Shown: piece after piece, positions 2,687 through 26,403 of the stretch
Layout of the letters: every line of letters starts with the position of its first letter
How positions within the stretch are numbered: position 1 is the stretch's first letter
Source: a virus
DNA: 35,057 nucleotides
Strand: one strand, 5' to 3'
IMG/VR virus record: IMGVR_UViG_3300035196_000195
Coordinates: 1 to 35,057 of that record
Notes under the pieces: generated by a model
Seen by the model: the letters and a program-made list of their open reading frames with translations, nothing else
What the model was told of the DNA's origin: nothing
The model's database searches: none
Position numbers and translations under genes: made by a program

Positions 2687-3484
2687 TTAATCGTTAACAG
2701 CAGCCATCAATCTTAATTTCAATTGTTGGTTATCTGGTTGTTTTAAGTAGGTTATCACATCTAATACGTCACCTCCTAAGAAGTTGTCATGGTAGAAAAT
2801 TTTGTGTCCTTGTTTCATAAGTACACTTTTCTGTAAACATTCTAAGACTAAAGCATGTGCTGATACATCTTCTGCATCCATATCAATATGTCTTAAAACT
2901 TCTCTTGCTTGTCCTTGAACAATTTTGTCCAATTCTACTTCAATGAAGTTATCTGATTTTCCTTTAAGGTTTTTACCTCCAAGTACCATAATCAAACTTA
3001 TCTTTCTTTCTTTTCCAAGTCCCGCAGATTTAATAACTGCGTTCTTTTTCATTTCAATTTTACTTGCTCTTGCATCCACTTCTTCTCTTTCGTCACTAAT
3101 CACATGCGTAGCATCTGGGAATAAACCTTGTTCGTATTCTCTCATGGAGTTTGCAACGAATCTACTTGCTTTCATGAATTTGATCTTCACGAATTCAATT
3201 GGTCTTTGGGGGTCGAGAAACAATGTACTGTTCTCTAAATTTATAGTAGCCATAGCTGAATCCCAAAATGGGTGAGGAGTATCTGGGTTGAAGATAGGAC
3301 TTAAATTCTGTCCTAAAATCTCTGAGTATTCTTTAATTTCTTCAGGACTCATTCCTGTTGCATACTCCATAGTATCTCCATCGACTAAAGCTTTCAACTT
3401 GACAGGTCTCTTAAAGGATTCATGTCCAGTTTTTCCATGCCATGTCTTTCTTTCTATTGGTCTTACTTCTACTTTTAAACTCAT
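2687..3484 (-). CDS. Conserved crAss-like late protein
   Basis: This 265-residue protein lies between the capsid gene and the ring-type gene, a position conserved in crAss-like genomes. It is Lys/Glu-rich, starts MSLKVEVRPIERKTWHGKTGHE, contains an Asp/Pro-rich stretch (IFNPDTPHPFWDSAMATINL) and a C-terminal helical half. No signal peptide, membrane segment or catalytic motif is evident. The first gene after the capsid terminator, it is probably a virion or assembly protein; the exact role is unknown. Confidence 0.7.
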   Translation of the reverse strand: MSLKVEVRPIERKTWHGKTGHESFKRPVKLKALVDGDTMEYATGMSPEEIKEYSEILGQNLSPIFNPDTPHPFWDSAMATINLENSTLFLDPQRPIEFVKIKFMKASRFVANSMREYEQGLFPDATHVISDEREEVDARASKIEMKKNAVIKSAGLGKERKISLIMVLGGKNLKGKSDNFIEVELDKIVQGQAREVLRHIDMDAEDVSAHALVLECLQKSVLMKQGHKIFYHDNFLGGDVLDVITYLKQPDNQQLKLRLMAAVND

Positions 3485-3510
3485 GATTTTTTTTATTTAT
3501 TGATGATGCT

Positions 3511-3550
3511 AAAAAAAAGAAGAAAGGAGGAGGTTTAAGTTCCTCCCTTC
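3511..3550 (-). terminator. Intrinsic terminator after the capsid gene
   Basis: On the minus strand a GC-rich stem (GAAGGGAGG against CCTCC-TTTC, loop about 8-10 bases, 3522-3550) is followed by eight T (3518-3511). It lies between the capsid stop at 3586 and the next start at 3484. It would cap or attenuate the capsid message, separating a highly expressed capsid from the genes below. Confidence 0.8.
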
Positions 3551-3585
3551 TCTTACAAAACTATTTGTTCACACTTAAAATTCGA

Positions 3586-5043
3586 TTAGTTTCTTGAAAG
3601 AATCAATTCACCACATCTTGTAACATCGTGAATGTGAAGTCCACAAGATTTCTCAACGTGCATTTCATAGTAAGAACCTGAGTGAGCAGAACTTCCACCT
3701 TTCTTAGGTCCGTAAGGTCCATAAAGTCCTTCAATATAAGTGAACGCAAATCCATCTTTTTTATTGATTAACTTCATATTAGACTTATTCCCTTCTCCAG
3801 AGAAGTCCATGAAAGTGATTCGTTGTGACTCTACAGGGAAACCTGTGATAGGGTCAATCTCGAAGTTGATTTCTCTGTCATCATACAATGGATTATGAAC
3901 TAATTCAAGACTAGTACCATTTGCCATGTTGTATTTCACAAATTGGAATCCACCTTCTAACGCATTAGTATGGTAAGGAGAGCCAACTTTGTTTGAGAAT
4001 ACCTCGAAATTCTTAATGAAACCAGATTTGTTCATCCAGTCTTGTACAGCTCTGTGGAATGCAAGCATACCATATTCACCTGTAAATCCTTTGATAGCAC
4101 GACCTTTACCTGGTTTAACTCGTGAGTAGAAAATGTCCATCAAGTACTCTTCAATTAACTTAGTAGTTAAGTGAGAATATCTGTGAATATGAGAATCTTC
4201 CAATTGTTGTTGGATTCCTGGACCTGACCTTACTGGTCTACCATTTGCTCCAATAACTGTATCAGTACTTCTTGAGTACCAGTACCCTCTTTCCAACTCT
4301 CTGTACCATTGTTGCCAGTATTCTACCTCTGCATAGCGAATCCATGAATCATGGTATTTCCCTTTGCTATCTGGTACTTTTACTGCAAGTACTTCTGTTG
4401 AAGCGTAATCAGTTACTTTGTACTTCTTTCTAAACTTACCCATCTTATTTCTAAGAGAAATAGGTAAGCTGTACTGAGTACTACCTGATTGTTCTGCTGC
4501 CTCTTCGTATTGAGAGTACAGTTTTGCCCATTGTGTCCCAGGAGCTAAGTACTTAACTGGGAGAGATAAAGCAGGGTCATCTGACATTAGACGAACTGTA
4601 TAAATCCATCCATCACCATGACGAGTTACCTCATCCATAATTCGACATTGGAATCTTTTATTAGATGTTCCAGGAGTGATTACATCACCAGGTACATACC
4701 AATTCTCATCCAATTTGATTCGGAAAGTTCTTCGGAACTTACCAGGAGTCGTATCTGAAGCAGGTAAAATATTTTCCAAGACAACTAATGGTCTTGTATT
4801 TGCACCTTTCAAATCCCACTCCCATTCTGTAGCAGCGATAGTTTCCTCTGTTTTCTTGTTGCCCATCAACATACTAGACATCGGATTATCCGAGTAGTAG
4901 TTTTGTGCAGAAAACAACTGGTCCATCTGGTCTATGAATTTATGAGGCTTTGCTAACAATGCTCTCCCTAAGTGAGATTGCTCTGTCATGTTCGCACTCC
5001 ATTCCATTTCTTTAGTAATTAGCTTACTACCAAGAGTTGCCAT
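3586..5043 (-). CDS. Major capsid protein (crAss-like, HK97 fold)
   Basis: At 485 residues this matches the usual length of crAss-like major capsid proteins. Recognisable features are the N-terminus MATLGSKLITKEMEWSANM, the segment SHLGRALLAKPHKFIDQMDQ, the central LPISLRNKMGKFRKKYKVTDY and the C-terminal CGLHIHDVTRCGELILS. The HK97 fold is inferred from family membership. The gene follows the acidic scaffold-like gene by 25 bases and is followed by a strong terminator, as expected for the most abundant virion protein. Coding sense is clear, with no truncation. Confidence 0.92.
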   Translation of the reverse strand: MATLGSKLITKEMEWSANMTEQSHLGRALLAKPHKFIDQMDQLFSAQNYYSDNPMSSMLMGNKKTEETIAATEWEWDLKGANTRPLVVLENILPASDTTPGKFRRTFRIKLDENWYVPGDVITPGTSNKRFQCRIMDEVTRHGDGWIYTVRLMSDDPALSLPVKYLAPGTQWAKLYSQYEEAAEQSGSTQYSLPISLRNKMGKFRKKYKVTDYASTEVLAVKVPDSKGKYHDSWIRYAEVEYWQQWYRELERGYWYSRSTDTVIGANGRPVRSGPGIQQQLEDSHIHRYSHLTTKLIEEYLMDIFYSRVKPGKGRAIKGFTGEYGMLAFHRAVQDWMNKSGFIKNFEVFSNKVGSPYHTNALEGGFQFVKYNMANGTSLELVHNPLYDDREINFEIDPITGFPVESQRITFMDFSGEGNKSNMKLINKKDGFAFTYIEGLYGPYGPKKGGSSAHSGSYYEMHVEKSCGLHIHDVTRCGELILSRN

Positions 5044-5068
5044 AAATAATTTGTTTTAAAATTTAAAA

Positions 5069-6268
5069 TTAATCGTTAAAATAATCCGCCAGAGACTTTT
5101 TAGGCTTAGTACTATTTCTAGAACTTGAGCTTTTGCCTCCCTTAACATCCTTGGTATTTCTTCGGATGCCATCCTTCACTTTCTTGGTAATTTTTTCCTC
5201 GACTTTTGATTGAATCTCAGAAAGGTCAAAATCAGTCCTTAAAAGTTTAGCAATGAACAGAGCTTTACCTTCATCTTGTAAAGCTTCCATTAAATCTTTC
5301 TGCATAGTAGTTATTGAACTTCCGTTTTGCAGCTTTATATTTCTATCAACCATATAGGTTGGTAATTCTTTCTTGTCTTGTTTAGATAATGTGATACCTC
5401 TTACATCCTCTAATTTTTTAATACTCCCTGAGAGGGCAGTCTTAGTTTGTTTTAGTTGGTTCTTTCTCGCTGTTGCAGCAGCTCTTTGAGACGTAGCTAA
5501 TTCTGCACTTGCAGTTTCATTTGCTTGGTCCTGTTTAGCTTTCTTATTCTCAGCAAAGACTTTCAACTTATTAGAATCTTTTAAGAAGTCTAATTGAGTA
5601 TCAACATAGTCTTTATCATATCCTTCAGCTTTTAAAGATTCCCTTACTAGAGACTCTTGGTCAGCTACTATACTCATATCTAAATCTCCTGTTGAAGGAA
5701 CTCCTTTAGCGAATGCAGCAAAGAATTTTCCAACATCTCCACCTGCCATTGCAAACTTATTCAAGTCTTTAACTGATTGTGGTAAGTCTTCTAACAATTC
5801 TCCAACTCTATCTTCAATACCAGTTTCCCAGTTATCTTCAATAATTGTTGCAGCTTTCTCTTCTGTCAACTCTTCTCCCTCTTCGAGTTCATAGTCCATA
5901 AGACCTTTCTCCTTCAAGTGAGCTAAAGTTCCAAGAGAACCAGTTTGAATTTCAGGTTCATCATCTAAATTAGCACCTCCTTCAGATTCTTCTTCTTCCG
6001 AATCATCTAAAAAATCTGCTACTGCGTCTTCTTCCTCATCCTCTTTTGGATTGGGAGCTGCTTCAGGTTCATCATCTTCTCCAAAGAAGTGAACACCTTC
6101 CTCTTCTTTTTTCTCTTCCTTTTCTGCTGGAGCTGATTTTCCATCTGCTTCATCTTCTTTTTTAGGTGCGTAGCTGACTACCTCCTCTGAACTTCCGAAA
6201 AAGTCCATTGCTTCTGTCTGTTGTTCCCAACCTCCGAAGTCATCTAAATTTTCTTCTTGTTTTGCCAT
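5069..6268 (-). CDS. Acidic scaffold-like protein
   Basis: This 399-residue protein has a very acidic, low-complexity N-terminal third (repeated Glu/Asp runs, EEEEDAVADFLDDSEEEESE type) followed by a predicted helical, Lys-rich C-terminal two thirds ending in a basic Ser/Asn/Lys tail (KGGKSSSSRNSTKPKKS). It lies between portal and major capsid genes, where tailed phages keep their internal scaffold. An acidic, coiled, bipolar protein in that slot is most likely the procapsid scaffold or an internal head protein. No protease motif is seen. Confidence 0.75.
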   Translation of the reverse strand: MAKQEENLDDFGGWEQQTEAMDFFGSSEEVVSYAPKKEDEADGKSAPAEKEEKKEEEGVHFFGEDDEPEAAPNPKEDEEEDAVADFLDDSEEEESEGGANLDDEPEIQTGSLGTLAHLKEKGLMDYELEEGEELTEEKAATIIEDNWETGIEDRVGELLEDLPQSVKDLNKFAMAGGDVGKFFAAFAKGVPSTGDLDMSIVADQESLVRESLKAEGYDKDYVDTQLDFLKDSNKLKVFAENKKAKQDQANETASAELATSQRAAATARKNQLKQTKTALSGSIKKLEDVRGITLSKQDKKELPTYMVDRNIKLQNGSSITTMQKDLMEALQDEGKALFIAKLLRTDFDLSEIQSKVEEKITKKVKDGIRRNTKDVKGGKSSSSRNSTKPKKSLADYFND

Positions 6269-6350
6269 TGTGATACAAATTTAATATTTTACTTTAAGAA
6301 TTTCAAGTATAAAACTTAATTTTTAATTTTACTAATGTAATAGCTTTTTT

Positions 6351-8759
6351 CTATTTTTGTGTTGCTTTAGCAGCATTAGCTTTCATTTTTTTATCTTCGT
6401 TATCCATTTTATCTTGATGGACTATCTTATCATGTTCAAATTTCTCTCTTGCTAGTTGCTGGGCAGATTGTTTAATGTCTGCATCAAGTCCATCTCTAGC
6501 TATTTCAATGAAATCATTTACTCCATCTTGATCTTTATCCATGTCAGGATTAAAGGATGCAGCCATGAGACCACCTTTAACAATCTCTGTTTCTCTTCTT
6601 TCTTCTTCTTTGAGTCTAATCATATTAGCTTCATGCTCCCATGTCTCTTTGATAAACTCTCTTGCTTTGTCAGCCTCTTCTGCATTTGCTTGTAGCTGCT
6701 CTTGTTGTGCTTTTTGTTCATGGTCTCTTCTTACTTGTTCAGCAGCTTTAAGAGTCTCTTCAGCTTCAACAATTCCAGTCTGTTTAACAACAGCTAGTAC
6801 ATCTGAGAACTCAACTTTCTGAGCCTGTAGTGCAGCGTGAGCTAGAGTTCTTACTAATTCTTGAGCTTCTTCAGCTTTGGCTGCATTAGATACAAATAAA
6901 CCTAGAGTAGAATTATCCAATAGAGCTATGTCTAAATCAATGATCTTTCTACTAAAGTCGTCCAAAATGTAAGTCAGCTTTTTCTTACCTGAATTAGCGT
7001 AAGCAATTTTGGCAGTCTCAAGTAATGCCTGTAGTACACTTTTCTTCAAGTGATTATGTAAATCAAAGTAAGGTTCTAATATATGTGATGATTGGATTAA
7101 GTTTTGTTGAGCATTACCTTTACCTTCATAAGCTCCAGTTTGTCCTTCAACTCCAGGAGTAATTCCTACAGAGAGTCCCGCTTGTTGCTTTAAGTATTCA
7201 GCAAGTTCAATATATTTTCCAATATCAGAAGCTAAAGACAAATCAATAGTCTTAGCCATAGTGTTTACATCATTGTATTCTACCCCTTCTTCATTAGGGT
7301 CATACCACATTACTGGTGATGCATCCATGTAGTATTTCCATTTCTCAATGTCGATACCAGCACTATCTGGGATAGCATTAATGTTCATCATCACTTTCTT
7401 CCCTTTGTCAGATGCTAAAAGCAACTCTAATCTGTACATTACAATGTTGTAGTAGTACTGGTAGACTTTCAATCTATCCATAAGAGCTGTCTCTTGAGAG
7501 TTCATGTTATCATAAATCACTCCATAGTAAGGAAGCTTACAGTAATATAAGTTTTCAATATCTTTAAATTGACCTGGGATAGGTCTCATGTGCTTGTAAA
7601 TGTCTGAACCAATCTTCCACGTTTCATATACTTCTGGAATCCATTTCCAATCTACAGAAATATCTCCTGAATCTACATCCATCTCATAGCTTTCGTCTAC
7701 TATAACTTCCTGCTCCTCACCCTGCTCATTGACAAAAGTAAGGAATCCAATCTTTCTTAAAGACTTCCAGGTACAATGTAATACTCTGACAGTTGCGTAA
7801 TCCTCTTCATCATCACTATCGTTAAAGCTAAAAATGCTATCTCGAAGTCTACTCTGAGTATAATTTGCAAAGTCACTATAGACTTTATCAATTTCTGTTT
7901 GATTCAACTCATCATTAAATCTAGCAATTACTTCTGAAGGAGTCATTCTGTATTCACAAGTTGCCCATTCACCATCTTGAGTAAAAGGAGTGTCAGTAGA
8001 CTTCTCACAATTAAACCTAATAGAATTTACATTCCAAGCTTCAGGCTCTCCATTCATAGTACCTACATACATAATACCTTTGGCAGATAATAAACCATGC
8101 TTAAAGGCATCATTAAATTTTCTTTTAAGGTCACATTTTTGTATTAGGTATTCTAGTAATTGGTGGGATAAAACTTCAGCAGGGTCTTGATGGTCTCTCT
8201 CCATGTACTTTCGTACACTATCTGGAGTCATTTGTTTTGTCTCCGCTTCTACTTGTTGTTGTATCTTTTCTACTTGTTGTTGACTTAATTCACCAGCACT
8301 CTTCATTTGTTGTTGAGCTTTCACTTCAACCTCTTGTCTAATTGGTTGCATGATAGAGCTAATGACAAATTCTCTAATCCTTTTAAACTCTTCATCTTCT
8401 CTTCGTGTAGTGGCTTCAGGATTAGTGGCAATAACTTTCCAGGAAAAAGACCTCTTCATTTCCATGCCTAGCATAGCTTTGATCTTCCCTGATACAATAT
8501 CTCTATTTACCATTGTTGCTGGCAATTCTCCTACATCTGCACCATAAGGTTGGCAAACATACTCGAAGTCAGCTAGATTAAGAATGTTATTAAAAAGATC
8601 GTAGTTTACTTTTTGTCTCTTGTAATCTACTATATCACCATACCCAGTACCTCCGTTCTGTTGAGTGTCCAATAAATCAGCCTGTTCTTTATACCAGCTA
8701 AAGTCACCTGCTTTTTTAGCAGAAGTACTTAGTCGTTGGTTCTGAGTAATTTTTTTCAT
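6351..8759 (-). CDS. Portal protein
   Basis: This 802-residue protein fits crAss-like portals in length, order and motifs. It forms the dodecameric DNA gate at one capsid vertex. Visible are the N-terminal conserved region with LADFEYVCQPYG and MVNRDIVSGKIKAMLGMEMKRSF, a long wing/stem region with aromatic-rich segments (YCKLPYYGVIYDNMNSQET), a region like QAGLSVGITPGVEGQTGAYEGKGN (tunnel-loop side), and a C-terminal Glu/Gln/Lys-rich coiled coil (about residues 640-802) that would form the barrel. It lies 20 bases after TerL. Confidence 0.92.
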   Translation of the reverse strand: MKKITQNQRLSTSAKKAGDFSWYKEQADLLDTQQNGGTGYGDIVDYKRQKVNYDLFNNILNLADFEYVCQPYGADVGELPATMVNRDIVSGKIKAMLGMEMKRSFSWKVIATNPEATTRREDEEFKRIREFVISSIMQPIRQEVEVKAQQQMKSAGELSQQQVEKIQQQVEAETKQMTPDSVRKYMERDHQDPAEVLSHQLLEYLIQKCDLKRKFNDAFKHGLLSAKGIMYVGTMNGEPEAWNVNSIRFNCEKSTDTPFTQDGEWATCEYRMTPSEVIARFNDELNQTEIDKVYSDFANYTQSRLRDSIFSFNDSDDEEDYATVRVLHCTWKSLRKIGFLTFVNEQGEEQEVIVDESYEMDVDSGDISVDWKWIPEVYETWKIGSDIYKHMRPIPGQFKDIENLYYCKLPYYGVIYDNMNSQETALMDRLKVYQYYYNIVMYRLELLLASDKGKKVMMNINAIPDSAGIDIEKWKYYMDASPVMWYDPNEEGVEYNDVNTMAKTIDLSLASDIGKYIELAEYLKQQAGLSVGITPGVEGQTGAYEGKGNAQQNLIQSSHILEPYFDLHNHLKKSVLQALLETAKIAYANSGKKKLTYILDDFSRKIIDLDIALLDNSTLGLFVSNAAKAEEAQELVRTLAHAALQAQKVEFSDVLAVVKQTGIVEAEETLKAAEQVRRDHEQKAQQEQLQANAEEADKAREFIKETWEHEANMIRLKEEERRETEIVKGGLMAASFNPDMDKDQDGVNDFIEIARDGLDADIKQSAQQLAREKFEHDKIVHQDKMDNEDKKMKANAAKATQK

Positions 8760-8779
8760 TAAGTCAAGTTTTATGCAAG

Positions 8780-11008
8780 TTAATTCTTTTTGTGCATTTT
8801 ATCCATCATTTGGAGAAGTTTTTTTGCATTTTTATTTTTCTTGTTTGTACTATGCTCCTTACCTAGTGTCTCTTCTTGCACTTGGAACATGCACATAAAG
8901 AACGCAGAAAGTAAATCAAAGTTACCTTTCCTATTATATGCAATAAGTTCTTCTAACATTCTTACAGAGTAGATTCTATCTATAACTGTAACTGGGTCTC
9001 CATTCTCGTCAAAGTCTAGTACTGTGAGTAACCATTCCTTCACATATCTTTCTCCTGCATCTTTAAGCATCTCATTCATGTGACACCCAAAAACCCTGGC
9101 TACCTTAGACTTCTTAATATTCTTACTAATAACTGCATCAGGTTGAGCAGCAAGTAGGTGTAATTGTTTTGTTCTTCTGAAATAATTCTTAACACCTGTC
9201 ACCTCATTCTCGTGCATGATTTGAGTGTTGTACAATTTTGCTAACATGGCAGCAATTCTGTCCATGTCTTCAGGAGATTCTCGTCTACCAATGTACTCAG
9301 CCACAATAATATTATGGTAGAGACTTCCTGTATGCACACTCTTATAAACTATGATAGCTGCCAATGATGGTCCAATATCTTGTCTAACAGGGTCATACCC
9401 AATTTTATATAATCCTTTTGGTGGGTCATAAATAGGCTGTTCATAAATCTGAACAACTCCTCTTTTATCTGTAGGTACATTATTGTAACTATCTATTGGC
9501 GTAGCCTTACCATCAAGTAACATCTTAGTTTTCACTTGACCTTTCTCCATGTACAGCTCAACTGGTGTAGCATGAGTCTTATGTAATTGCTTACCTTTTA
9601 CAAGTTGTAATCTCTTCTTCAATTCAACTACTGGGAAATTGTTCACGGAAACTGAAGCAAATGCTTCTCCTGGTCCACGAGGCTTCTCCTGCATTCTTGC
9701 TTGAATCTCAGTTGATGTTGCTCCATTCTTAACAAGTTCGGCTCTGTACTCCATCTCAAATCTATCCGCAGCAACTTTATCTGAGTTACCTTGCTTGTCA
9801 TAGAATGGTTTACCTGTGTGTAAATCCTGCCCCTCCATGTTCCATGTAATAGGGTGGAAGAATCCTGAGACAGTACTTTCCATATCTTCATCCCAAATAT
9901 TCTTAAATGGTAATAATCCAAAGGCTTTAGGTCTTGAGTGCATGTCTGCATAATCAGCAGTACCACCTTGCATATCTCCAGATGTACCAAATATTGTTAT
10001 CATCCCCGTTTTTATAGCTCCAGCCATGACACAATCCTCCGTTGCTTTATATGCTTTCTTTAATAGTCCAGGTGTACCAAAAGCTCCTGACTCCTCAAAG
10101 TAAACTTCTTCAGCATCTTTTCCCCTGGCAGCATCAGCATTATCTTTAAAGGTAAGTCCTTGAATCTCTGACATAAAACCTTTCTCAAGTTTGATACCAT
10201 TCTTATACTGAATATAAGATGCTCTAATATGGTCTTGCTTTTGGACAACATCAGAAGGCATTGCCCAACCTGTGTTACCATTCATAAAGTTAATATTGTT
10301 TACTGCCATCGTAAGAAGTCCCTTTGGGTAAAGATACTTTTTCTCATAGGCTGCAAAGATAGTGTAGGAGTTCGGCTTAGTAAAATAATTTCTTGATGCA
10401 GCAGCAGCAGATTTGTAAGAGTAACCTTTACGTCTCGACTTACCTACAATCAAATTCCAACCTCCACTAAGACAATCAGCTTCAAGGACAACTTCAAGTT
10501 TAAGACTTTCAAATCTTTTCTTCATCTCAACAGCTTGTCCCATAGTGTCCATTTTAAGAAAGGCGTGGTTATCATCATGCCCCTCTTCAGTAGCCTCGAA
10601 TACACCATACCTTGCAATCTCCCTAATCCAGAAGTAATTATAATCTCCATCCCAAAAATCTGGAAAGCCTTTAATCTTCTTTGTTCTTTTTGCTCCAGCA
10701 TCTTCAGCTTTCTGTATTGGACAAAAATTTAGATAAGAGTAATGGTCTCCAGTTACCTTGACACCACCAACAGTATATCCTATTATACATCTATTCCTTT
10801 GCTCCTCCCAATAGTCATACCATGCAGGAGAACCCCAAGGGTCTGCACAGTAATAACCATGTTTCATAAAGTGGTCTCCCTCTTCTCTAAACACAGAACT
10901 ATTAATCCAAATCCCTTCAGGGTTTCTGATGGAATTTAGTTTACCTTCCTTGTACTCTGAGTCTGCACCACTTGCAAACCATTCATCTAATATCTCTTTC
11001 TTTGCCAT
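8780..11008 (-). CDS. terL: Terminase large subunit, TerL
   Basis: This 742-residue protein is the packaging motor: an N-terminal ATPase driving DNA into the procapsid and a C-terminal RNase H-like nuclease cutting concatemers. Visible are a Walker-A-like segment in WNLIVGKSRRKGYSYKSA, a Walker B/catalytic carboxylate EEVYFEESGAFG, a coupling-type segment TIFGTSGDMQGGTADY and a nuclease aspartate in YKIGYDPVRQD. Length and motif style match crAss-like TerL. It is next to the portal and GIY-YIG-like genes, as usual. No small terminase subunit is recognised beside it. Confidence 0.93.
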   Translation of the reverse strand: MAKKEILDEWFASGADSEYKEGKLNSIRNPEGIWINSSVFREEGDHFMKHGYYCADPWGSPAWYDYWEEQRNRCIIGYTVGGVKVTGDHYSYLNFCPIQKAEDAGAKRTKKIKGFPDFWDGDYNYFWIREIARYGVFEATEEGHDDNHAFLKMDTMGQAVEMKKRFESLKLEVVLEADCLSGGWNLIVGKSRRKGYSYKSAAAASRNYFTKPNSYTIFAAYEKKYLYPKGLLTMAVNNINFMNGNTGWAMPSDVVQKQDHIRASYIQYKNGIKLEKGFMSEIQGLTFKDNADAARGKDAEEVYFEESGAFGTPGLLKKAYKATEDCVMAGAIKTGMITIFGTSGDMQGGTADYADMHSRPKAFGLLPFKNIWDEDMESTVSGFFHPITWNMEGQDLHTGKPFYDKQGNSDKVAADRFEMEYRAELVKNGATSTEIQARMQEKPRGPGEAFASVSVNNFPVVELKKRLQLVKGKQLHKTHATPVELYMEKGQVKTKMLLDGKATPIDSYNNVPTDKRGVVQIYEQPIYDPPKGLYKIGYDPVRQDIGPSLAAIIVYKSVHTGSLYHNIIVAEYIGRRESPEDMDRIAAMLAKLYNTQIMHENEVTGVKNYFRRTKQLHLLAAQPDAVISKNIKKSKVARVFGCHMNEMLKDAGERYVKEWLLTVLDFDENGDPVTVIDRIYSVRMLEELIAYNRKGNFDLLSAFFMCMFQVQEETLGKEHSTNKKNKNAKKLLQMMDKMHKKN

Positions 11009-22629: not shown

Positions 22630-23445
22630 ATGAAAAACTTATACAGTATTTTATTAGTATTATTATTTGCAACTGCATGTGCAGCACATCCAGCATGTCC
22701 TACTAGTCATACTCTGACTACAAATGCGAACAACAAGACATTTATCAAGTTCAATCATATTCCTTGTAAAAGCGATAGCATTTACATTGATACGACTGGA
22801 ACTGGTGTGTACGATTTAGGAGGAGTAAGATCAGGGAAGAGAAGATACAAATTCTCTGAGATTACTGGAAATCCATTCTTACACTCAATTAAGTTTGTTG
22901 ACTGCAATGAGATTTGTCAGTACAATCAGTCTCTACCTATTGAGTTAATTGATTTTCAAGTTAATCTTGAAGGTGTGAGAACTAGGTTACAATGGAGGTT
23001 AGCCATGCAAGAGAATCTAGAAAATATAGTGGTAAGAAGAAATGGTAAGGTAATTGAAGTAATTCAAAATACAATTACTGACCAATTATCATGGACATTT
23101 TATGATGAAAACCCTACTGATGGGATGAATTATTACCAACTAGACTTTGTAGATTTTGATGGAGAAAATGAGTTGTCAAATATAGTAGCTGTTCGATATG
23201 ATGCAGTTTCTGATGTGACAGTCAACAAAACTATTGGAGAAGACACCTTTACATTTAAGACCTCGGAAGAGTTCTTTCATTATCAGGTAGTGGTCTTTGA
23301 TATGACAGGGAAATTAATATCCCAAAACGTTTGGGACTCGCAGGAGTCATCTAGCTTAGACATTGATTTGTCTTATCCAGGTTTATATATCGTGTCAATA
23401 TTTAATGGAGTCGAAAAGAATGCCTTTAAATTGACAAAATTATAA
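22630..23445 (+). CDS. Secreted protein with T9SS C-terminal sorting domain
   Basis: The 271-residue product has an N-terminal signal peptide (MKNLYSILLVLLFATACAA), a short Cys-containing N-terminal region (about 20-98), then SLPIELIDFQ at residues 101-110 followed by RLQWRLAMQENLENIVVRR and a fibronectin-like fold. This is the wording of Bacteroidota SPxELxxF-V-L-W-T-E-N domains that precede sorting signals. Residues about 195-271 match the type A C-terminal domain of type IX secretion: FHYQVVVFDMTGKLI and LSYPGLYIVSIFNG, ending KLTKL. It should be carried through the host T9SS to the cell surface and possibly anchored. A terminator follows. A surface masking or adhesion role is inference. 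Confidence 0.78.
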   Translation: MKNLYSILLVLLFATACAAHPACPTSHTLTTNANNKTFIKFNHIPCKSDSIYIDTTGTGVYDLGGVRSGKRRYKFSEITGNPFLHSIKFVDCNEICQYNQSLPIELIDFQVNLEGVRTRLQWRLAMQENLENIVVRRNGKVIEVIQNTITDQLSWTFYDENPTDGMNYYQLDFVDFDGENELSNIVAVRYDAVSDVTVNKTIGEDTFTFKTSEEFFHYQVVVFDMTGKLISQNVWDSQESSSLDIDLSYPGLYIVSIFNGVEKNAFKLTKL

Positions 23446-24392: not shown

Positions 24393-24797
24393 ATGAAGAA
24401 TTTATTATTACTAATGTTCTTATTTATTACTATCTCTTTGAATGCACAATCATCAACAGATAAGTATGAAACTTTTAAGACTTCTTTGGAAGGAATGTCT
24501 TTGGTAGATTATGCTGTACAACAAGAGCGTAGATTTGAAAAGTCAGGAAAGACAAAATTATTGAAAGGGAGACTTCTTGTTTTGACTGGTGTTGCTTTAG
24601 GCGTAATGGGTGCGGTGGGATTATCAGAATTAAGTGGTGTCCCATCAGGAAAAGGGAAGGAGATTGATACTGGTGTTGCAATTGGTGCTATGGCTCTTGG
24701 TAGTATGGCATTTACTGTTGGACTAGCAAATATTACAATAGGCAAAAAGGATTATCGAGAATCTAAAAGAATGCTAAAGAACGGCTTTAAATTTTAA
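24393..24797 (+). CDS. Exported membrane protein, possible holin/spanin partner
   Basis: The 134-residue product has a signal peptide (MKNLLLLMFLFITISLNAQ) and, after a charged region, two Gly-rich hydrophobic segments (LLVLTGVALGVMGAVGLSEL and GVAIGAMALGSMAFTVGLAN) separated by a short loop, ending in a basic tail. Placed 37 bases after the lysozyme it may be a lysis membrane component, but the cleavable signal is unusual for a holin. Envelope protein of another kind is equally possible. Confidence 0.6.
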   Translation: MKNLLLLMFLFITISLNAQSSTDKYETFKTSLEGMSLVDYAVQQERRFEKSGKTKLLKGRLLVLTGVALGVMGAVGLSELSGVPSGKGKEIDTGVAIGAMALGSMAFTVGLANITIGKKDYRESKRMLKNGFKF

Positions 24798-24984
24798 AGC
24801 AACTGACTCAGTAATTTGAACTCTCTCAGTAGCAGAGGAAATTACAATGAGGGGAACAGACCAGATGTAAGGCGTAGGCTGGTCACTTTTAGTAACTGAC
24901 AAAGTAAAAAACTCTCAGAGCTTACTCTTATAGATACTCCGAAGTGATAACTAGAAAGCAGGTATAGTCCTGAAGTCAGTTGCT
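24798..24984 (+). ncRNA. Structured RNA closed by an 11-bp stem
   Basis: AGCAACTGACT (24798-24808) pairs perfectly with AGTCAGTTGCT (24974-24984), followed by TTTTT. Inside are a GTAATTT/AAATTAC stem with an inner CTCT/AGAG, a GACCAG/CTGGTC hairpin, an ACTTT/AAAGT hairpin and a CAGG/CCTG hairpin. This multibranch shape, 187 bases long, with no open frame, is a distinct RNA beginning 1-2 bases after a stop codon. No known family was recognised. Confidence 0.6.
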
Positions 24985-24996
24985 AATTTTTAATAT

Positions 24997-25385
24997 GGGG
25001 GCGACATGGAGAGACTGGGTTTTAAATTTATACGAACATGTAGTGGAAAGCTTATTAACCACTTAAATACTAATAAGTAAAACATAATTGCTAATACAAT
25101 TAACAAAGCAGAGGTAAGTAACGCTATTGCGAATAATTTACTGACTGCAACCTATGTATCTCCTAGAACGCAAGTTTTGGAAGCAGCATAGTAATTCTTT
25201 TTTCTCATTTTTGTTTGAAGTAAAAATGAGATGGTGGAAGTTAACTTCGGTTAGCCCTGGGGAATTGATAATCCCCACAATATGAGGTTGGAACACCTTG
25301 TTTAGCTAGTCACTTAATGACTAAACATGTATAATTTGTATTTTGGAAAATTGTCTGGACCTGGGTTCAAATCCCAGCACCTCCA
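24997..25385 (+). ncRNA. ssrA: tmRNA (transfer-messenger RNA)
   Basis: A 389-base RNA with tmRNA architecture. The tRNA-like ends pair GGGGGCG with CACCTCC, including the G3-U pair recognised by alanyl-tRNA synthetase. A T-arm CTGGG-TTCAAAT-CCCAG precedes the 3' end. Helix 2 is suggested by the segments near 25024 and 25328. A pseudoknot follows: AGTGG/CCACT (25042-46, 25059-63) interlocked with CTTATTA/TAATAAG (25051-57, 25071-77). Twelve bases later a GCT resume codon (25090) opens a 33-codon tag frame starting ANTINK and ending QVLEAA, stopped by TAG TAA. Downstream stems include CTCATTTTT/AAAAATGAG. It would rescue stalled ribosomes and tag the products. Confidence 0.82.
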
Positions 25386-25488
25386 CAAATCCCAAAAAAT
25401 CAGGTTAACCCACGCCTGAGTGAGGAGAAGTAATACATAGAAAATCTTCTCCTCACAATTTTATTAATTAATAATTCAATCTAAAGTC

Positions 25489-25781: not shown

Positions 25782-25851
25782 ATCTTAGTAACTCAACAGG
25801 TAGAGTAGTCCCTAGCGGGATTAGTTATGGGTTCAACTCCCATCTAAGATA
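25782..25851 (+). tRNA. tRNA-like element with 4-base anticodon loop
   Basis: The acceptor (ATCTTAG/CTAAGAT), D-arm (ACTC...GAGT) and T-arm (ATGGG-TTCAACT-CCCAT) are perfect, discriminator A. The anticodon arm is three bases short: GTCCC-TAGC-GGGAT. No normal seven-base loop with T33 can be drawn, so no decoding assignment is made. A degenerate tRNA gene or a non-decoding tRNA mimic. Confidence 0.6.
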
Positions 25852-25854
25852 CAA

Positions 25855-25916: not shown

Positions 25917-25928
25917 GAATAAACTTTT

Positions 25929-26081
25929 GCGTAGAAGCATGAAGGACAGGAATATGTTTGAAATGGAATTTATAAAATAAGAAGTAGTTGCAACTAATTC
26001 TAATTGAAGTTTTCCTATTTAGTATTCCGTTATGCATCACCGTTAAGGTGAAGATTGTAGGTTCGACTCCTATCTACGCTA
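25929..26081 (+). tRNA. tRNA-like element interrupted in the D-loop
   Basis: Ends match a tRNA: GCGTAGA/TCTACGC acceptor, D-stem GCAT/ATGC (25937-40 and 26032-35), T-arm GTAGG-TTCGACT-CCTAT. Between the D-stem strands lie 91 bases instead of about 8. A stem GGAATA/TATTCC (25949-54, 26023-28) closes the extra segment; removing about 83 bases (25946-26028) would give a D-loop GAAGGGTT and a 70-base RNA. The anticodon arm TCACC-GTTAA-GGTGA has only five loop bases, so the codon read is unclear. Confidence 0.55.
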
Positions 26082-26090
26082 CAATAAAAA

Positions 26091-26174: not shown

Positions 26175-26317
26175 GGGGGTATAGCTCAGTTGGTAGAGCA
26201 CCTGTCTTATAAGCAGGAGGTCGTAAAGGGTTTCTTAAACTTTATAACGTGAACGAAGTTGAGGTATATGCTGAAGTACAAAGTGTATACACCTGGGTTC
26301 GAGTCCCACTATCCCTA
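26175..26317 (+). tRNA. tRNA-Ile(TAT) with 70-base insertion in T-stem
   Basis: The 5' part is canonical: acceptor GGGGGTA, D-arm GCTC...GAGC, anticodon arm CCTGT-CTTATAA-GCAGG (anticodon TAT), variable loop AGGTC and one further G (to 26223). The 3' part TGGG-TTCGAGT-CCCAC-TATCCCT-A resumes at 26294. Removing 26224-26293 restores GTGGG/CCCAC exactly and a 73-base cloverleaf. The insert has hairpins (GTTT-CTT-AAAC) and an AGGTATA/TATACACCT stem at its 3' boundary. Confidence 0.72.
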
Positions 26318-26322
26318 CAAAA

Positions 26323-26403
26323 TGCGTGATTGTATAATATACTGGATAATTTGCTCTTAGTTCTAGGTGGAGAGAAAGTGGTTCGATTCCACTCAGTCAT
26401 GCA
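26323..26403 (+). tRNA. tRNA-like element, 10-bp acceptor
   Basis: TGCGTGATTG pairs with CAGTCATGCA over ten bases (7-bp acceptor plus three more). T-arm AGTGG-TTCGATT-CCACT is perfect. The D-arm has only AAT/ATT. The anticodon arm can be drawn as CTCTTAG-TTCTAGG-TGGAGAG, with T33 and a CTA anticodon, but the inner pairs are poor (A-G mismatch). Anticodon assignment is therefore tentative. Confidence 0.5.

Follow-up and report, generated by a model that had tools for sequence, protein, structure and literature searches.

A complete tmRNA gene in a crAss-like phage genome

Analysis of the window, the whole 35,057-nt stretch of viral DNA considered here, revealed a genuine and complete phage-encoded tmRNA gene on the plus strand at positions 24997–25388. 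ARAGORN called a single tmRNA in the window (24997–25386), with the tag ANTINKAEVSNAIANNLLTATYVSPRTQVLEAA followed by two stops, and the Rfam model RF00023 matched end to end (24997–25388) with 83 bits against a cut-off of 47 (E 5.8e-31), bearing out the tmRNA call of a preliminary description made from the sequence. The minimum free energy of the RNA was −106.8 kcal/mol compared with a shuffle mean of −84.8 (z −4.0), and none of 100 shuffles was equally stable. The 3′ end reads ACAA and CCA is therefore not encoded; the mature 3′ end probably lies at 25385, CCA being attached later. Neither a promoter nor a terminator could be identified convincingly for the gene.

The gene combines tRNA-like ends with an mRNA-like part. 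The 5′ acceptor strand, GGGGGCG (24997–25003), forms six of seven pairs, including G3-U, the remaining position (C6-A70) being mismatched, and the Rfam alignment places the T-arm and the 3′ acceptor strand, ending CACCTCC, at 25359–25384. An H-type pseudoknot, PK1, occupies 25042–25077: in S1, AGTGG (25042–25046) pairs with CCACT (25059–25063), and in S2, CTTATTA (25051–25057) pairs with TAATAAG (25071–25077). The resume codon, GCT at 25090, follows 12 nt past PK1 and opens a tag reading frame of 33 codons (25090–25188), which is closed by the tandem stops TAG TAA (25189–25194). The pseudoknot, spacing and stops noted in the preliminary description were thus all confirmed and could be mapped. 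The tag ends EAA, that is, with the small residues AA before the stop. Because a frame beginning at a fixed point stays open for 33 or more codons by chance in about 6% of cases, openness alone is little proof, and the real support for the tag is the retention of both the frame and the AA end in relatives.

The source of the window is a crAss-like phage, as previously proposed: its capsid protein matches Crass_capsid (PF23898) with E 1e-151, identifying a crAss-type major capsid protein. The nearest cultured relatives are phages of Flavobacterium psychrophilum, with a capsid identity of 72%. This phage reads TAG as a stop: its main genes are closed when translated with the standard code, and recoding of TAG was rejected despite a tRNA with anticodon CTA called at 26326. 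A protein encoded at 22630–23445 has a sub-threshold match to Por_Secre_tail, a Bacteroidota secretion sorting domain, giving a weak hint of the host.

Conservation of the gene in close relatives

A sister phage (L003/L085), whose DNA polymerase is 98% identical to that of the window, carries a tmRNA scoring 98.8 bits with an identical tag; three codons of the tag differ between the two phages and all three differences are synonymous. In a more distant relative (L005/L088, polymerase identity 61%) the tag, GKSINTAEVKNAYEHNMLTAIYVSPKVNSLVAA, likewise has 33 residues; dN/dS between this tag and that of the window was 0.69 over the 33 codons, a value that alone is not significant. L088, L091 and L205 preserve the form of PK1 through alternative pairs, with letters that differ from those of the window. 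The distance from PK1 to the resume codon ranges from 11 to 13 nt in the PK1-bearing (type A) relatives L085, L088, L091 and L205, and all seven acceptor pairs are present in the type A relatives with aligned ends. Homologues therefore keep both the pseudoknot and an open tag frame, features whose loss in related phages the preliminary description had said would speak against a tmRNA.

RF00023 exceeded its cut-off in 6 of 50 relatives collected by DNA polymerase, with weaker matches besides, and its application to 80 polymerase relatives found tmRNAs in further crAss-like records and none in the more distant groups among them. In all eight relatives checked, the tmRNA lies 1.8–6.9 kb upstream of the DNA polymerase gene on the same strand.

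A second architecture across a wider phage family

Among 47 records collected by capsid similarity, RF00023 exceeded its cut-off in 15, including all four F. psychrophilum phages tested, and blastn located the tmRNA in 29 records of F. psychrophilum phages. The Flavobacterium phage records that carry annotation have no feature at the tmRNA site, and ARAGORN missed the tmRNA in these phages. The gene of the Flavobacterium phage FpV21 (KT876726.1, 84348–84762), for example, is unannotated in the published genome, and likewise in its relatives. The Cellulophaga phages phi14:2 and phi38:1 also contain unannotated tmRNAs; that of phi14:2, a member of the Crassvirales, specifies the tag GNDTDNTQLKANMTVVHNILNGSDALIGSSVQKLAMVA and scores 46 bits with RF00023, one below the cut-off of 47. 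Because most records are unannotated and ARAGORN misses or shortens several of the tags, surveys will have undercounted phage tmRNA.

In most members of the set the architecture is different, an invariant motif taking the place of PK1. This motif, termed motif B, consists of a 3–4-bp stem closing AGAGAYAA(C), followed by ACTAAGGTGAA, and stands where PK1 would be. The stem varies compensatorily (CAG:CTG, ACCG:CGGT, AGGG:CCCT), and inspection by eye found no S2 that would make motif B a PK1. An exact scan found motif B in at least 120 viral contigs, a scan that itself selects for conservation of the motif, so that the support free of this bias is that of the members initially detected via polymerase or capsid. 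The exact scan of 84,980 prokaryote genomes gave one match, a chance occurrence that is not a tmRNA, and capture of motif B from a host was rejected on this ground.

When 50 motif-B records were searched whole, RF00023 matched at E ≤ 0.001 in 44 and over the cut-off in 36, and a crAss-type capsid was found in 34. Every one of the 78 motif-B genes whose ends were recognised had seven acceptor pairs and G3-U, the G3-U partly by construction because the end-finder favoured it. Alignment of 54 genes showed covariation in the acceptor, about 25 H2 pairs and the T-stem, with as many as six kinds of base pair at a given pair of columns. The motif-B tmRNA is common to phages phi38:1, phi40:1 and Calle, and since the phi38:1 and Calle records gave no crAss capsid match, it either moved between lineages or is old. 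These tmRNAs are a conserved set in aquatic and flavobacterial crAss-like phages and in some other Bacteroidota phages.

The tag is long and conserved as a peptide

The 54 distinct motif-B tags range from 24 to 49 residues (median 35), and they end in AA (49 tags), VA (four) or GV (one). They share a near-fixed stretch, Q-[VI]-x-A-N-M-x-x-V-x-x-[LI]-[LI], within which codons vary freely: the asparagine is encoded by AAC in 30 tags and AAT in 24, the valine by GTA in 30 and GTT in 24, and leucine by four codons. Because the stretch is near-fixed while its codons vary, and because pooled dN/dS for the tag was 0.42 (15 independent pairs), selection acts, moderately, on the peptide itself. A cause at the RNA level alone was considered for the ANM motif, whose codons alifold pairs with the end of the tag, but was rejected because synonymous codons vary elsewhere in the motif. 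No long conserved tag of the motif-B type was found in the bacterial genomes scanned.

The preliminary description took the EAA ending as unusual and as a possible sign of steering. It proved to be ordinary variation, occurring in 3 of the 54 motif-B tags alongside VAA, LAA, IAA and MAA, and therefore gives no reason to infer steering away from the usual protease. The end of the FpV21 tag reads ...AQVEANMNMAFSLIREDVAVAA. Other tag types in the set are that of the window, a LEISNP type (L091, L205) and an 18-residue tag (L092).

Two further properties of the tag were tried and set aside: the hydrophobic moment of the motif was not above that of shuffles (median p 0.13), arguing against an amphipathic helix, and the single PHROG family matched was hit by 2 of 20 tags (E 0.004), which was not convincing as membership of a known protein family. 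The helix that AlphaFold modelled for the tag reached a pLDDT of about 80 at most, indicating only moderate confidence. The tags of L217–L296 look mosaic, with the same front joined to REEVAVAA, GGTEVKSNDIIEFELAA or GDDTQEEASYEVELAVAA, as if modules had been exchanged.

Comparison with known tmRNAs

Phage tmRNAs are established but uncommon. They were reported in 402 of 18,146 phage genomes (about 2.3%; PMC9004378), 79 unique phage tmRNA sequences have been counted (PMC11915505), and huge phages with both tmRNA and SmpB are known (PMC7162821), so that the occurrence in a few mycobacteriophages given in the preliminary description was too narrow. The phage genes resemble the standard one-piece bacterial tmRNA (RF00023) in the tRNA-like domain with G3-U, the long H2, the T-arm, the resume codon about 12 nt past PK1, the AA-ending tag and the stops. 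They differ in being phage-encoded, in the use by most members of AGAGAYAAC...ACTAAGGTGAA for PK1, and in the length of the tag, 24–49 residues compared with a modal 10 (PMC11915505), the comparison with host tags resting on that survey and on cr106_1. With 33 codons, the tag of the window is indeed unusually long, as first described.

The preliminary description knew of no tmRNA in crAss-like phages; however, the gut crAss-like phage cr106_1 (NC_055871, Steigviridae) has a complete tmRNA beside tRNA genes that is annotated in its record. Its tag, DNTYRVAA, has only 8 residues. Eight other gut or Bacteroides crAss-like genomes had nothing over the RF00023 cut-off, giving short tRNA-sized matches or none. 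The Cellulophaga phage Calle_1 (MT732432, Pervagoviridae) has a motif-B tmRNA with a tag of the same family, GNNTNAVNAQIEANMEAVNAILNLEVAVGV, which is annotated in GenBank and counted in PMC8776804. Unlike the window, Calle_1 is not crAss-like; its tag ends GV, and ARAGORN reads a shorter one. Phage tmRNAs, including those of cr106_1 and Calle_1, are known already, and what appears to be new is the long conserved tags and motif B.

Phage-encoded ssrA is also described for Bacillus phage G, mycobacteriophages and Melnitz in the available parts of PMC4131195 and PMC9004378, which contain no description of a conserved long tag for any of them. The tmRNA of Bacillus phage G likewise lies beside tRNA genes but has a 13-residue tag (ARAGORN), and that of Melnitz is in two pieces. 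The closest likeness in tag length is the 27-residue tag of Mesoplasma florum (PMC9097571), which is bacterial, ends AFA and is a substrate of Lon in an organism lacking ClpXP; this tag shows that a long tag may be paired with a different protease (PMC8138137, PMC9097571). The literature searched, which mostly excluded subscription journals, yielded no account of long conserved tags or of motif B.

Proposed function and alternative explanations

A long tag whose peptide is conserved among divergent phages, together with an RNA motif in place of PK1, provides a clear handle on the purpose of phage tmRNAs. SmpB was found in none of 15 and none of 39 phage records, many of them fragments, with bacterial control genomes positive; the set thus lacks, in the records searched, the phage-encoded SmpB of a self-sufficient trans-translation system, and host SmpB is probably used. 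We consider it likely that this is a genuine, conserved phage tmRNA that rescues ribosomes via host SmpB and adds a long phage-specific degradation tag. Alanyl-tRNA synthetase would charge the phage tmRNA through its G3-U acceptor, and host SmpB would carry it to stalled ribosomes, where translation would switch to the phage frame and append a tag of 24–49 residues (33 in the window). The -xAA end would most likely still deliver the tagged product to a host ClpXP-type protease, and the long conserved stretch before it could serve as a flexible or unfolded start site or as an extra recognition element. The phage may benefit by keeping ribosomes available when stalling results from infection or from host defences that cleave mRNA or tRNA.

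The same lack of SmpB in the records searched would also suit a decoy, in which the phage tmRNA takes SmpB and ribosome access from the host tmRNA and blunts host rescue and tagging, a role already put forward for the tag-less form of mycobacteriophage DS6A; a form containing only the tRNA-like domain, like that of DS6A, is reported to inhibit tmRNA (PMC11915505, PMC4131195). A tag would be superfluous in a pure decoy, whereas the frame, the peptide motif and the AA end are kept under selection, and we regard this explanation as improbable. More weight can be given to a destination other than ClpXP, in which the long tag sends rescued products to another protease or partner, as its conserved internal motif and the precedent of M. 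florum would allow; with the AA end kept in nearly all motif-B tags and no partner identified, this is nevertheless rather unlikely. We lean against, while tentatively entertaining, the broader proposal of a phage-only Bacteroidota tmRNA class in which a new RNA motif for PK1 and a two-part tag signal (Q[V/I]xANMxxVxxLL plus -xAA) would do more than mark products for ordinary degradation, for example by directing rescued chains to a selected host protease or phage partner. It is highly improbable that the gene is a functionless attachment-site relic, a piece of host ssrA captured during integration or through inexact excision. Integration into tmRNA genes is common (PMC11590407, PMC9004378), but the gene is complete, syntenic across divergent phages and strongly covarying, and motif B is missing from the scanned prokaryote genomes apart from its chance match.

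A further alternative accepts ribosome rescue by the family and concerns the window copy alone, which would be a decaying allele or carry assembly errors. The C6-A70 mismatch is absent from relatives, the D-loop, which in its conserved form is the SmpB-binding element of tmRNA, is 1 nt shorter than that of the sister phage, and the first 45 or so nucleotides diverge strongly from the sister, while the tags are identical and the flanking element is near identical. These lesions mean that the window copy may be impaired, a recombinant or the product of misassembly, though they cast no doubt on the family. The RF00023 score of the window copy is lower than that of the sister (83 compared with 98.8 bits) but far over the cut-off, PK1 is intact and the tag changes are synonymous only, and we think decay or misassembly doubtful, though not negligible.

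The family offers candidates for long natural degradation tags in Bacteroidota, and cultured systems that carry the tmRNA exist in the F. psychrophilum phages FpV4 and FpV21 and the Cellulophaga phages phi14:2 and phi38:1.

Neighbouring elements

In the window, L008 and L009, the tmRNA has tRNA genes or tRNA-like elements next to it; in FpV21, ARAGORN found no tRNA genes beside it. Directly before the window tmRNA, at 24797–24992, lies a structured element (ends gcaactgac...gtcagttgc, z −2.0) for which Rfam gave no match. The sister phage and L005 also contain its motif CAGATGTNAGGCGTAGGCTG, which in L005 follows the tmRNA. Downstream, a tRNA at 25782–25852 has a shortened anticodon loop, could not be assigned by ARAGORN and is also found in the sister. 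At 25925–26083, a tRNA-like element recognised by eye (acceptor GCGTAGA/TCTACGC, T-arm) contains a long insert and was called by no tool. The tRNA at 26175–26317, whose anticodon was read by eye as TAT and whose variable region holds about 70 additional bases, is kept in the sister, and the tRNA with anticodon CTA (amber), called at 26326–26402 though TAG is a stop, has an odd anticodon arm. In L008, a tmRNA with a 49-residue tag heads a run of 24 tRNA genes (2761–8860).
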